Source: an uncultured Rhodopila sp. (GTDB taxonomy: Bacteria > Pseudomonadota > Alphaproteobacteria > Acetobacterales > Acetobacteraceae). From it: DNA of 64,000 nucleotides. The notes below the pieces were generated by a model that was not told where the DNA came from, did no database searches, and saw nothing but the letters and a program-made list of their open reading frames with translations. This document shows positions 19,147 through 64,000 of this stretch, piece after piece. The stretch spans positions 1 through 64,000 of the forward strand of contig NZ_CAIWTY010000046.1 in assembly GCF_903915725.1 (NCBI RefSeq). Direction: 5' to 3'. Within the stretch, counting starts at the first letter, position 1; each line of letters starts with the position of its first letter. The position numbers and the translations under genes are program-made.

Positions 19147-19269
19147 GCGAAACTCCAGCCGATTCGCAGCGGACATTAGGCATTTTTCGCCGCCGCCGCA
19201 CCGGGTGAATGACGACTGCCCGTAACAAATGCGGGGTTGTCTTCACGGGCCGGACAGGCGGCGCCGGTT

Positions 19270-19352
19270 CGTCATGCCGACGAAGGTCGGCATCCACGCC
19301 TTTTTCTTGTCGGAACAAAGGCGTGGATGGCGGGCCTACGCCCGCCATGACG
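19270..19352. repeat. REPIN-like element, complete copy
   Basis: Arm 1 is CGTCATGCCGACGAAGGTCGGC with ATCCACGCC, arm 2 is GGCGTGGATGGCGGGC with CGCCCGCCATGACG. The loop is CTTTTTCTTGTCGGAACAAA. Each arm folds as its own hairpin and the outer CGTCATG/CATGACG ends also pair. It lies between the divergently placed uppP and rpe genes, downstream of rpe's stop. Confidence 0.85.
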
Positions 19353-19395
19353 GTTGAAGTACGCGGTGTCGCGCCACGCCGTGACGACTTTGCGG

Positions 19396-20956: not shown

Positions 20957-21018
20957 GCAGACAATCTCCGAAAACTGACAGGTGTGTCATAGCGAGCCGC
21001 CGTGAGAGGCAACCCCAC

Positions 21019-21205
21019 CGTCATGCCGACGAAGGTCGGCATCCACGCCTTTTGCTTCAACAAACAAAGGCGTGGATGGCGGGCCTTCGCCCGCCATGAC
21101 GATGCGGCGAGTCGGCCGCCATGACGATGCGGCGAGTCGCCCGCCATGACGATGCGGCAAGTCGGCCGCCATGACCGGGCGGGTAGGCCTTCGCCCGCCA
21201 TGACG
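21019..21205. repeat. REPIN-like element plus tandem REP units between cbbS and cbbX
   Basis: A complete element (CGTCATGCCGACGAAGGTCGGC ... GCCCGCCATGACG) ends near 21104. It is followed by three tandem units of about 24-25 bp containing CCGCCATGACGATGCGGC, then another half copy (GGCCTTCGCCCGCCATGACG). Each unit can form or extend a hairpin. Transcripts from cbbS into cbbX must pass through this. Confidence 0.85.
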
Positions 21206-21218
21206 GGGCAGATACGCT

Positions 21219-27816: not shown

Positions 27817-30800
27817 TCACATCGCCGACTCTCGCCGGACATCACGAGCCTCGTCGCGCAACCGCCGCCCCCGCACCAGCCTCTCCAGCATATCCAGCAG
27901 CGCCGCCGACGCTATCGGCTTGGACAGGTAATCATCCATCCCGGCCGCGACATAATATTCCCGCGCCCCGGTCATCGCATCGGCGGTCAGCGCAATGATC
28001 GGCACCGAACCCTTCGGCGGCGGCAAATCCCGGATCTGCCGCGTCGCGCCAATGCCATCCAAAATCGGCATCTGCATGTCCATCAGCACCGCATCGAACG
28101 TCCCTTCCCGAGCCGCCGCGACGGCTTCGACCCCATTGCCGGCGATCCGCGCCGAATGCCCGGCATGGGCCAGCATCGCCTGCACCACCCGCTGGTTGAT
28201 CACGTTGTCCTCCGCCACCAGCACGCTCAGAGGCAAACGGGCGGTCTTGTCAGCCTCCGAAGCATCCGCCGCAGCGGGAAGCGCACGCCCGAGGCACTCC
28301 ACCAAATCACGCCGCCGGATCGGCTTTTCCAGCACCGCATCGAACAGCCCATGCCCCGACGACTTCAGCGACACCATGGCCGCGCAGGTCACCAGAACGA
28401 TCGCAGGAGCAACCCCGGCCAGCGCCCGGATGCGCCCGGCCAGCGCCGGCCCGTCGATCTCCGGCATGATCTGGTCCAGGAACACCGCCGCATAGGGCGC
28501 ACCATCGGCAGCAGCACGCTCGATCGCGCGCAGCGCCTCGAAACCATCCGGAGCCGAGGCAACCTCCATCCCGAGCGCGCCGAGGTGGCGGCCCATGATC
28601 TCCACGTTCATCGGGGTGTCATCGACAATCAGCGCCTTGCCTCCGTTCAGGCGCGCCGGCGGCCGGAGTTCGGCCGAACCCGCCACCCTGTCGAACGGAA
28701 CTTCAAACCAGAAGCAGGAACCCGCACCGACAGTGCTGGTAACGCCGATGCGGCCCCCCATCAGCTCGACAAGCTGACGGCAGATCGCCAGGCCCAGACC
28801 GGTGCCGCCATAGCGGCGGGTTACGGAACTGTCGGCCTGGGTGAATTTGGTGAACAGACGTTCCATCACCTCGGCCGGGATGCCGGTCCCGGTGTCGGTG
28901 ACCTCGAATCGGAGGTACACCTCGCCCGGTTCTGCCGGCATCGGCCCCGGCGCGGCGGACGTCACCCGGATCGTGACCCCCCCCTCACGGGTGAACTTGA
29001 CGCCGTTGCTGACGAGATTCAGCAGCACCTGCCGCAGCCGCATCGCATCGCCATTCAGCACCGCCGGTAGCCCGGGATCGATGAACGTCGTCAGCGAAAT
29101 CTCCTTCTCCGCCGCCCGCGCGCTCATCAGTCCTCCGGCCTGCTCGACAACGCCGGCCAGGTCGAAGTCCAGCGCTTCCAGCTCCATCTTTCCGGCGCCG
29201 AGCTTGGAGATGTCGAGAATGTCGTTGATCACGGCCAGCAGCGACTCGGCGCTGTCATAGGCCATGCGCGCATATTTGTGCTGCTGCCCGGTCAGGCCGG
29301 TTTCCAGCAGCAGGCCGTTCATGCCGATGATACCGTTCATCGGGGTGCGGATTTCGTGGCTCATGTTGGCAAGGAATTCGGATTTGGCCTGGTTGGCCGC
29401 CTCCGCCTGGTCCTTCGCCGCCAGCAGCAGCCTGGCGCTGCGGTGGCGCTCGGTCACGTCGGCATAGGTGCGCACCACGCCGCCGCCGGCCAGCGGGATG
29501 CTGCGCACTTCGATGACCGTGCCGTCCGGCCGCTCGCGCTCATAGATGTCCGGCCGGTGCTCGATGCCGCCCTTGCGAACCGTCTCCACAAAGACTTCGC
29601 TGCTCCTGACGAACTCCCGGGACCGCAACTGGTGCGCCAGGATGTCGTCAAACCGGTAGCCGCCCGCCGTCACGTCCGGCGGCAGGTCCAGCAGTTCGAC
29701 CGCGCGCCTGTTGCACACCGGCACCTGCCGGTCGGCGGTAACCATCATCAGGCCCTGGTCCATGTTGTCCAGGGTGATCTCCAGAACCCTGGACTTAACG
29801 GTCAGCCGGGCCTCGCTCGCCCGCAGGCTGTCGAGCAGCCTGGCGTTTTCCGCGGCTTCGTGCTCGACGAAGCCGCGCGCCCGGGTCAGGGCCTTCAACG
29901 TCCGGTTCTGCCGCCGCAACAGCCGCGCCAACAGCAAAGACAAGGCGGCCAGAACGGCGACGAGACCGAAGGTCAGTGCCGCGAAGAACCGCGAACTCCT
30001 GCGCCAGTTCGCCAGGAAGGTATCCTCGTCGATCGTGATGTTGCTGATCAGCGGATAGCCGTGCAGCCGGCGCGGCGCGACGATGCGCGCCGGTCCGTGA
30101 CCGCCATCGGGCAGCGGACGTCCCGCGGCGAGAATGGCGCCGGACGAGAGTCCCGAGCCGAGGACGTCGTGGAATACGCTACGATTAGCGAACGAATCGC
30201 CGAGCCATTCCGATCCCAAAGGCTCGCGCGCCAGCAGGATTCCGTCGCTGCGAAACAACGATATCGTGGCATGCTCGGACAGATCAATCGTCTTGAAGAA
30301 TTCCTGGAAGAATGAGCAGGAAATGCCGACAATCGCAATGCCGATCGGCTGCGCGTTACTGTTGCGTATCTGGCGTGCCAGGAAGAAGGACCATTCGCCG
30401 GAGCCGCGGTTGCGGACCGGCATGCTCAGGAAAGCACCGTCGAAGGATCGCACATGCAATTCGTTGTAATAGTCCCGGTCGGCAACATTTATGGCCGGCA
30501 GCGGCGCCGGCCAGAACCGGCTAAAATTGACGATGTCTCCATTGAAAGCGACAATGCTGGCAACGTCGATCTGCGGCACCCCGGCAATCCTGTCGCGCAG
30601 GGTATCGAACACCGCCCGGGAGGTCATCTGCCGACGCAGCTCCGCGTCATTCTCGATTCCGGCCGTTTCAACCTGGACCACTATACTTTGCAGCACCAGA
30701 TCGGCTGCCGTGACCGCCTGGCCGTTATGTTCCGCCAGTGTTGTGGAGAGAGCGGATATGTTGCCCCGCCAGGTCTCGATCTCCGACTGACGCGTCTGCA

Positions 30801-30927
30801 GCACCATCGATGCCGCAATGGCGAGCGTGATCGCGGCAAGCCCCAGGCCGCCCAGCAGCACGATTCGCGACCTGGCGAATCCGGCCGATGGGCCGTCCGA
30901 TCCCGCCGGACGGGCATCTTGGTTCAT
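27817..30927 (-). CDS. hybrid sensor histidine kinase with two receiver domains
   Basis: 1036 residues from ATG 30927. Order: a membrane span at about residues 19-43, a periplasmic sensor of about 270 residues resembling a double Cache/PDC domain ([20 protein letters not shown]), a second span near 320, then PAS ([20 protein letters not shown]). HisKA carries the phosphorylated His in [19 protein letters not shown]. The ATPase has N- and G-boxes [26 protein letters not shown] and GGTGLGLAI. The first receiver ([21 protein letters not shown]) and second receiver ([22 protein letters not shown]) both keep the phospho-Asp and a Lys. No Hpt domain or response regulator lies nearby. The input ligand is unknown. 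Confidence 0.9.
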
Positions 30928-31102
30928 CAGGCTTCTCCACGGCGCGCGCCGGCAAAGTAGCACAGGTTCCGCAGATGCACACGTGACGGGTGATTTCAGA
31001 TGGCAACTATCCGCAAACGCCGAGAGCAATGCCTTTATGTCACGACCTGCCGGCGGCCATCTCGACGAGAGATAGTTTCGTGACCAACCGTCGCAATGCT
31101 TC

Positions 31103-54595: not shown

Positions 54596-59052
<4,457 letters not shown>

Positions 59053-59053
<1 letters not shown>

Positions 59054-60021
59054 TGTCGGTGGCTATTTCACAGGACGGAGCCGCGTTGCGGACGCTCTCC
59101 CCCGTCATGGCGGGCGAAGGCCCGCCATCCACGCCTTTGTCTGCCCACGCACCGCAAGGCGTGGATGGCGGGCCTGCGCCCGCCATGACGGAAAGGGCGG
59201 TGCCTTCGCCCGCCATGACGGATGGGGCGGTGCCTTCGCCCGCCATGACGGATGGGGCGGTGCCTTCGCCCGCCGCGACGGTCAGGGCAGTGCCCGCCGG
59301 GACGGATGGCGTCGAAGCTGACCACACCCCCAGCGAGACCTATCACCGCCGCCGCGGCGAGATGCTGCAGTATTTCGACCGCACCGCGGCCGAGACCTGG
59401 AAGCGCCTCACCTCCGACGCGCCGGTCAACCGCATCCGTGCCACCGTGCGCGCCGGGCGCGACGAGATGCGCAACACGATGCTGAGCTGGCTGCCGGACG
59501 ATCTCCGCGGCAAGCGCGTGCTCGATGCCGGCTGCGGCACCGGGACGTTTTCGCTCGAAGCCGCCCGCCGCGGCGCGCATGTCATCGCCATCGACCTCTC
59601 CCCGACACTGGTGCAGCATGCCCGTGAGAGCATGCCGAAAGACCTCGGCGCGGGCAGCATCGAATTCCATGTCGGCGACCTGCTCGACCCGTCGCTCGGC
59701 CGCTTTGACCATGTCGTGGCGATGGACTCGCTGATCCATTACCGCGCGGCTGATGCCGTGCGTGTGCTCGCCGGTCTCGCCGCGCGCACCGACGGATCGA
59801 TCGTCTTCACTTTCGCCCCGCGCACCGTCCTGCTGACCCTGATGTGGACGGCCGGACGCCTGTTCCCGCGCGGCGACAAGTCGCCCGCGATCGAACCCAT
59901 CGGCCAGAGGAAAATCGCCCGCCGCGTGAACAAGGGGTTGGAGGGCTGGCACACCGCCCGCACCCATCGCGTCAATCGCGGCTTCTATATCTCCCAGGCG
60001 CTGGAGGTTGTCCGTCCGTGA
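59053..60021 (+). CDS. bchM: Mg-protoporphyrin IX O-methyltransferase with a repeat-derived N-terminal insert
   Basis: 322 residues from ATG 59053, right at the bchL stop. BchM adds a methyl ester to the ring C propionate. Normal BchM begins near residue 84 (QYFDRTAAETWKRLTSDAPV), followed by motif I VLDAGCGTGTFSLEAARRGA and DHVVAMDSLIHYRAADAVRV. Before it, residues 18-82 come from a dispersed REP repeat in frame ([12 protein letters not shown], then three 10-residue AVPSPAMTDG-type copies). BchM proteins are usually 225-245 residues, so about 65 extra residues match the insert. A late GTG at 59290 could give a shorter, more normal protein. Stop overlaps lhaA (GTGA). Confidence 0.9.
59103..59300. 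repeat. REPIN-like element plus three 30-bp tandem units inside bchM
   Basis: A complete element spans 59103-59190 (CGTCATGGCGGGCGAAGGCC ... GCCCGCCATGACG). Then come three 30-bp units of GGGGCGGTGCCTTCGCCCGC plus CATGACGGAT at 59194-59283; the last has CCGCGACG. As the unit is a multiple of three, the bchM frame stays open through the whole array. Confidence 0.9.
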
Positions 60022-63381: not shown

Positions 63382-63656
63382 GACGCATCGAAGTCCCCTG
63401 CACCATCGAGATCGAGCAGACGCCGGAGTATCTGTACGCCCACACGACGCCCGAGGGGATCGACATCGGTCCCGGTGATCGCGTGCTGGTGCATGGCGCC
63501 CCGTCCAATATCAGGTTTGGTGACCGCATTACGGTCATGGGAACCGCCACTGTGATCCGGGCCACCGCGTTCGGCCGGATATGGGCCCACGCTGTCGGGC
63601 TAATGTCTCTCTTTGAACTTTATGATGTCGGGTTTGAGCCGAAGGAATCGTTATGA
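63378..63656 (+). CDS. small conserved protein between puhC and acsF
   Basis: 92 residues. Beta-rich and soluble: VPCTIEIEQTPEYLYAHTTP, GPGDRVLVHGAPSNIRFGDR ITVMGTATVIRATAFGRIWA. Small ORFs at this place occur in many alphaproteobacterial clusters that have acsF, and no standard symbol is certain. The protein overlaps puhC at its start (ATGA-type) and acsF at its stop, so it is inside the superoperon. A role in cyclase or reaction-centre assembly is inference from position. Confidence 0.7.
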   Translation: MRRIEVPCTIEIEQTPEYLYAHTTPEGIDIGPGDRVLVHGAPSNIRFGDRITVMGTATVIRATAFGRIWAHAVGLMSLFELYDVGFEPKESL

Positions 63657-64000
63657 GCGCCACCATAGAAAAACAAGTCAGCGAAACGACCAAAATGGCT
63701 CTGCACGAGACCGTGCTGAGCCCGCGCTTTTACACCACCGATTTCGCCGCGATGGACAAGCTGAACGTCGATTCCGTCCGCGCCGAGTGGGACGGGCTGA
63801 TGGCGGAATTCGCCCGCGATACCAACAAGCACCATTTTACGCGCAACGCCGACTTCGACATCGACCTGTCCACCATGCCGGACGACCTGCGGGAGGAGTT
63901 CATCCACTTCCTGGTCAGCTCCGTCACGTCGGAATTCTCCGGCTGCGTGCTGTATTCCGAGATCAAGAAGCGGGTGACCAACCCGGACATCCAGGCCTGG
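63653..64000 (+). CDS. acsF: aerobic Mg-protoporphyrin monomethyl ester cyclase, partial
   Basis: First 116 residues, cut by the window end. Begins KMALHETVLSPRFYTTDFAA MDKLNVDSVRAEWDGLMAEF, as in AcsF, then DADFDIDLS-type text and FLVSSVTSEFSGCVLYSEIK KR, with the Glu and the ExxH-like start of the di-iron ligands. AcsF uses oxygen to form ring E of bacteriochlorophyll. Its presence next to oxygen-sensitive bchNBL suits a phototroph that makes pigment in microoxic conditions. Whether the anaerobic cyclase bchE is also present cannot be seen. Confidence 0.95.
   Translation, partial: MSATIEKQVSETTKMALHETVLSPRFYTTDFAAMDKLNVDSVRAEWDGLMAEFARDTNKHHFTRNADFDIDLSTMPDDLREEFIHFLVSSVTSEFSGCVLYSEIKKRVTNPDIQAW

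Follow-up and report, generated by a model that had tools for sequence, protein, structure and literature searches.

REPINs consist of two inverted REPs with a spacer between them, carry a GTAG tag, are present as many dispersed copies and are mobilised by RAYT/Y1 transposases. The CGTC-tagged REPs, in the sections of Di Nocera 2013 (PMC3733652) drawn on here, have a stem starting with AT, stem/loop combinations of 8/4 or 9/5 and no dedicated transposase, and occur mostly as inverted dimers and mostly in alphaproteobacteria. Some of them are intragenic, with DnaE2 among the hosts, and for P. putida, C. koseri and S. maltophilia the same sections consider the majority of N-terminal REPs likely extragenic (PMC3733652). 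In Rickettsia, the parts of two papers drawn on here describe RPE-4, RPE-6 and RPE-7 as palindromes inserted in frame at the same site of orthologous conserved enzymes, DNA polymerase III alpha among them, with different element groups found at one site (PMC3767692, PMC10969869); the R. japonica paper leaves one versus repeated insertion ambiguous for these elements (PMC3767692). Among the titles and abstract openings that searches of the open-licence PMC literature returned, none deals with repeats in bchM, and no paper came up for Rhodopila together with repeat and palindromic.

The window analysed here, a stretch of 64,000 nucleotides from an uncultured Rhodopila sp., carries a palindrome of this kind in a bacteriochlorophyll gene. 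The bchL gene (58163-59053, plus strand; TIGR01281, 451 bits) is followed on the same strand by an open bchM frame of 322 residues (59053-60021), the ATG of which shares one base with the bchL TGA stop (TGATG). Profile search matches residues 103-319 of this frame to the BchM-ChlM model TIGR02021 (260 bits). The conserved BchM core of 226 residues (59341-60018, plus strand) is preceded by an N-terminal lead of 96 residues (59053-59340, plus strand), predicted to be disordered through residue 88. Within the lead, a first REP unit (59102-59131, plus strand) comprises a CGTC tag, a stem of 9 bp with a 4-nt loop (59107-59128) and a CCA tail, and a second, inverted unit (59162-59191, minus strand; stem-loop 59165-59186) has its CCA tail inward and its CGTC tag outward. 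The two 22-nt stem-loops thus form an inverted dimer, with 36-nt arms (59102-59137 and 59156-59191) that are 97% complementary. Tandem copies of a 30-bp (10-codon) unit that comes from the right arm form an array (59167-59294, plus strand; 4.3 copies by TRF) with direct repeats at 59172, 59202 and 59232. Sequence and TRF therefore confirm what the first-pass annotation had seen at this place, a REP dimer and a 30-bp array in the bchM frame, between the start codon and the BchM core. The hairpin folds as RNA with a minimum free energy of -88.7 kcal/mol against a shuffle mean of -46.5 (z -11.2).

The repeat is abundant in its own genome, where the stem-loop occurs 166 times at two mismatches or fewer and a backwards control pattern once, and at least 34 other genomic places (40 scored among 363 first-look candidates) share at least 84 of the 90 dimer bases. 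The bchM copy is a dimer, and a strict search yields 13 inverted dimers in the own-genome stretches that were fetched. In these 13, the CGTC tag lies at the outer end of 25 of the 26 half-units (CCTC in the other one), an unpaired CCA tail is present in 25 of 26, and each dimer has two open forward frames. With its CGTC tag, CCA tail, stem starting with AT, intragenic units and no dedicated transposase, and with the inverted-dimer layout of the bchM copy and of the strict hits, the element resembles the CGTC-tagged REPs as far as the cited sections describe them; many of the REP clusters surveyed below, however, show a single unit. It differs in the 9-bp stem and 4-nt loop of the bchM unit, each within the family ranges of 8-9 bp and 4-5 nt but in a combination outside the 8/4 and 9/5 stated there. 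The earlier label "REPIN-like" holds for the layout, an inverted REP pair with a spacer in many dispersed copies, but not for the CGTC tags, nor for the transposase: the Y1/RAYT model PF01797 has no match at E<=0.001 in this genome (99.18% complete) and has matches in 5 of 14 control genomes. A RAYT-driven REPIN is accordingly rejected for this genome and, since no Y1/RAYT transposase was found in it, "CGTC REP dimer" fits better as a name than "REPIN". Y1 genes and REP number do not track each other among eight genomes; G029 has 251 half-units and no Y1 match, and G012 has 3 half-units and one Y1 match.

Among 33 same-genus genomes, its own included, a clear bchM was found in eight species, four of which are filled at the bchL-bchM junction and four empty. 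At the empty junctions (G012, G020, G009 and G002) the core begins 17 nt past the last bchL sense codon and the lead is 5 residues long; the core likewise lies 17 nt past that codon in G034, of the same family, and 14 nt past it in G046. At the filled junctions the core follows after 290 nt in the window, 323 in G024, 104 in G006 and 317 in G029, with leads of 96, 107, 34 and 105 residues. The extra lengths, 273, 306, 87 and 300 nt respectively, are all multiples of three, and the TGATG overlap with the bchL stop is intact in the window and its three filled relatives, as expected from the earlier claim that the original start was kept after an in-frame insertion. The comparison of relatives put forward in the first-pass annotation as its refutation test favours insertion, as relatives without the repeat have the short lead and not the long N-terminus. 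The gain is larger than the ~65 residues first estimated: against the empty site it measures 273 nt, or 91 residues, without which BchM would have ~231. Half-units number 166 in the own genome, 70, 53 and 251 in the other filled species (251 in G029), and 3, 61, 79 and 3 in the empty ones (3 in G012); REP copy number was rejected as a predictor of the bchM insert, two empty species being REP-rich as well (61 and 79). Elsewhere in the window, two spacers carry REPs, one at 19177-19395 and one at 20957-21218 that also has a 25-bp array (21087-21175); G006 has 137 nt less in the first and 170 nt less in the second. Close species thus appear to gain and lose REPs or arrays.

A wider survey was limited to the 80 best loci out of 565 confirmed for bchM, with the G024 and G006 records among them. 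The gap from the bchL stop to the core is 11-40 nt in 72 of these 80 loci and exactly 14 nt in 46, with an ATG typically five residues ahead of the core at the short-gap junctions. Longer gaps are seen at eight of the 80 loci, two of them the G024 and G006 records. In L052, L054, L071 and L111, which belong to other lineages, the gaps are 104-243 nt and, unlike in the filled species, the core frame is interrupted by stops; an ATG lies three to five residues ahead of the core in L052, L071 and L111, and none does in L054. Judged by eye, some of these four junctions contain inverted repeats. L101 has a 62-nt gap and an ATG 14 residues ahead of the core. In L045 the gap is 67 nt, the core frame is open and a clear start codon for BchM is missing; this may be another read-through or a case of a rare start codon.

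The bchM frame has no stop in any of the four filled species, the other two forward frames have one to three stops each per species, and none of the reverse frames stays open across all four. As a control, 6 of 15 length-changed spacer comparisons (window against G006, G024 or G029; gaps above 20 nt; gene calls from our own model) are multiples of three, near the expected third. A caveat is that the four filled species are few and related, and that gain or loss of a 30-nt or 36-nt tandem unit leaves the frame intact in any case. Between the window and G024, dN is 0.166 and dS 0.230 for the insert (76 codons), against 0.016 and 0.397 for the core (226 codons). Across six pairs, dN/dS is 0.34-0.77 for the insert, from a repeat alignment that is partly non-homologous for the G029 pairs, and 0.04-0.26 for the core; the low insert values of 0.34-0.53 belong to the short 34-codon pairs with G006, and some constraint on the insert residues is possible. 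In an AlphaFold2 prediction from 22 sequences the pLDDT is under 50 for residues 1-33 and for residues 35-88, and the remainder folds. Taken from these alignments, the insert residues appear to be under weak constraint while the reading frame is kept.

The best explanation, which we hold with good confidence, is an ancestral in-frame REP insertion, read through from TGATG and carried as a passenger tail. A CGTC-tagged REP dimer would have entered bchM in frame a few codons past its start, probably in a single event that predates the split of the four Rhodopila-group species, as their shared remnants suggest: the alignment has an MSxA start and a QGV(D/E)G(G/R) remnant in all four, and VM(A/S)GEGP in the window, G024 and G029. 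Later in-frame tandem growth would account for the 30-nt units on the right in the window and the 36-nt, 12-codon units on the left in G024, in-frame shrinkage for G006, where the remnant alone is left, and partial overwriting for G029, where a second palindrome family (GPDKPGHD) stands on the right; these assignments of units were made by eye. Frame conservation suggests that translation still begins at the original TGATG and continues through the repeat, the product then being an otherwise normal BchM with a disordered, Gly/Pro/Ser-rich N-terminal tail. Selection would hold the frame open and act weakly on its residues, and the bchM insert would stand beside several other protein-coding REPs of the same genome.

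The gene context of these REPs was surveyed in 54 stretches (353 kb) picked for strong REP matches, with ORFs from our own hexamer model. In this REP-rich sample 20 of 76 REP clusters, many of them one unit only at three mismatches or fewer, lie inside predicted ORFs; 12 of those ORFs (13 clusters) and bchM were read, with 6 clusters left out, and the REP is internal in four of the 12, C-terminal in two (a HyaD-type protease and an ORF that is hydrolase-like by eye) and N-terminal in six. The internal in-frame cases are CobN, HypF, a DnaE2-like polymerase and a nitrogenase component 1-type protein. Together with bchM they use the same REP frame (5 of 5), a weak agreement since dimers have two open forward frames. 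CobN (L131:432-3878, minus strand; orthologues L178-L180; 4 of ten genomes aligned) contains an in-frame REP of 28 residues both in the own genome and in G006, an in-frame remnant in G024 and none in G012. The nitrogenase-type protein is found in 3 of ten genomes, with a REP peptide nearby in G024 and a shorter, unlike stretch in G006. In HypF (L124:1806-4283, plus strand) a REP dimer lies in frame between the zinc-finger and YrdC-like domains; four sequences were aligned, without the pieces from G024, and in G006 the gene runs off its contig; G029 has a different stretch and the distant G009 copy no insert. A second REP unit is present near the HypF C-terminus, also in G006. For the DnaE2-like protein (L205-L211, 7 of ten genomes aligned), a name that is ours, Pfam giving DNA polymerase III alpha domains, REP-like peptides are recognised by eye in G000, G006, G024, G029 and G009 and are absent in G012 and G034. 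Internal REPs are necessarily translated if these proteins are made, which renders translation of the bchM insert more credible. REP-like units also lie in predicted ORFs of the window at 30491-30514 (ORF 27817-31029, minus strand) and 63800-63820 (ORF 63653-64000, plus strand).

Read-through from TGATG has to be weighed against the possibility that the repeat is extragenic in effect, with BchM starting downstream, at GTG 59290 or in the core, the palindrome acting as an RNA hairpin and the long frame being an annotation artefact. This agrees with the view, in the cited sections of Di Nocera 2013 (PMC3733652), of most N-terminal REPs in the three species named there, with four of our six N-terminal REP ORFs (L121, L142, L144 and L159), which look extragenic by eye, and with the very high stability of the bchM hairpin. 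We nevertheless consider it improbable, as all four inserts are multiples of three and stop-free in the bchM frame alone. The later start proposed in the first-pass annotation, GTG at 59290-59292 (codon 80, plus strand), is not conserved, as none of the other three filled species has an equivalent codon; other in-frame start codons occur within the last 30 codons before the core in G006 and G024, but G029 has no ATG, GTG or TTG in the 30 codons ahead of its core. A start at Met104, inside the core, is conceivable, although it would cost the protein Tyr97, Arg100 and Arg101, which are invariant in 22 sequences. Because GTG 59290 is unconserved and the inserts are in frame and stop-free, translation from the original start is the best reading of these sequences. 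The same translation could follow from independent REP insertions in several of the four species, the junction being a hotspot, as might be suspected from the second palindrome family in G029 and from the ambiguity left for RPE-4/6/7 in the part of the R. japonica paper drawn on here (PMC3767692). The DnaE2-like linker between WDC(T/A/G)LE and AVRLGLRM also counts in favour of this: it has different in-frame REP-like peptides in five species and none in two, so that this site of a polymerase gene appears to be a hotspot of insertion. For bchM we regard repeated insertion as rather unlikely, given the MSxA start and QGV(D/E)G(G/R) remnant common to all four species and the motif common to three.

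Whether such a tail does anything is a separate matter. The idea of a "domesticated coding linker" is borne out as to the conserved reading frame, which is clear, and not as to the amino acids, whose constraint is weak; residue conservation gives a functional linker no support, though some constraint may exist. A function of the tail, as a domesticated linker or as an expression tuner of bchL-bchM coupling, seems quite doubtful: the tail is kept in four species, though cut to 34 residues in G006, and dN/dS is lower in the G006 pairs, yet its length ranges over 34-107 residues, its residues are weakly constrained and it is predicted to be disordered. It is also doubtful that the CGTC REP both supplies ready-made disordered segments at the termini and linkers of core enzymes and, as a translated hairpin in bchM, tunes bchL-bchM coupling; an always-open REP frame would then encode a mild Gly/Pro/Ser/Thr-rich peptide that is repeatedly tolerated (BchM, CobN, HypF, DnaE2-like). 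Most likely the insert is a passenger, tolerated while its frame is constrained, rather than a demonstrated functional linker.

A translated REP in BchM is thus well supported by the comparison of orthologues. It is a clear case, from a few related purple bacteria, of repeat DNA becoming protein and not an unprecedented one, protein-coding REPs being already known from Rickettsia RPE-4/6/7 and from Di Nocera 2013. As far as the cited parts of those papers go, the bchM insert resembles the RPEs in being an in-frame palindrome in an enzyme whose orthologues without insert are shorter, in occupying one site across orthologues, in the different element groups met at that site and, for the repeat family, in having DNA polymerase III alpha as a further host, and differs in its sequence family and in belonging to a free-living phototroph group; in contrast to the REPs of Di Nocera, the translation of an N-terminal unit has orthologue support here, and the host is a photosynthesis enzyme. 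The best-known protein-coding REPs are those of Rickettsia; in other organisms an N-terminal one is usually suspected of being a misannotation. The empty sites, the four in-frame filled orthologues and the photosynthesis enzyme make this a clean, testable example outside Rickettsia, in which a repeat persists within a gene through growth, shrinkage and overwriting.
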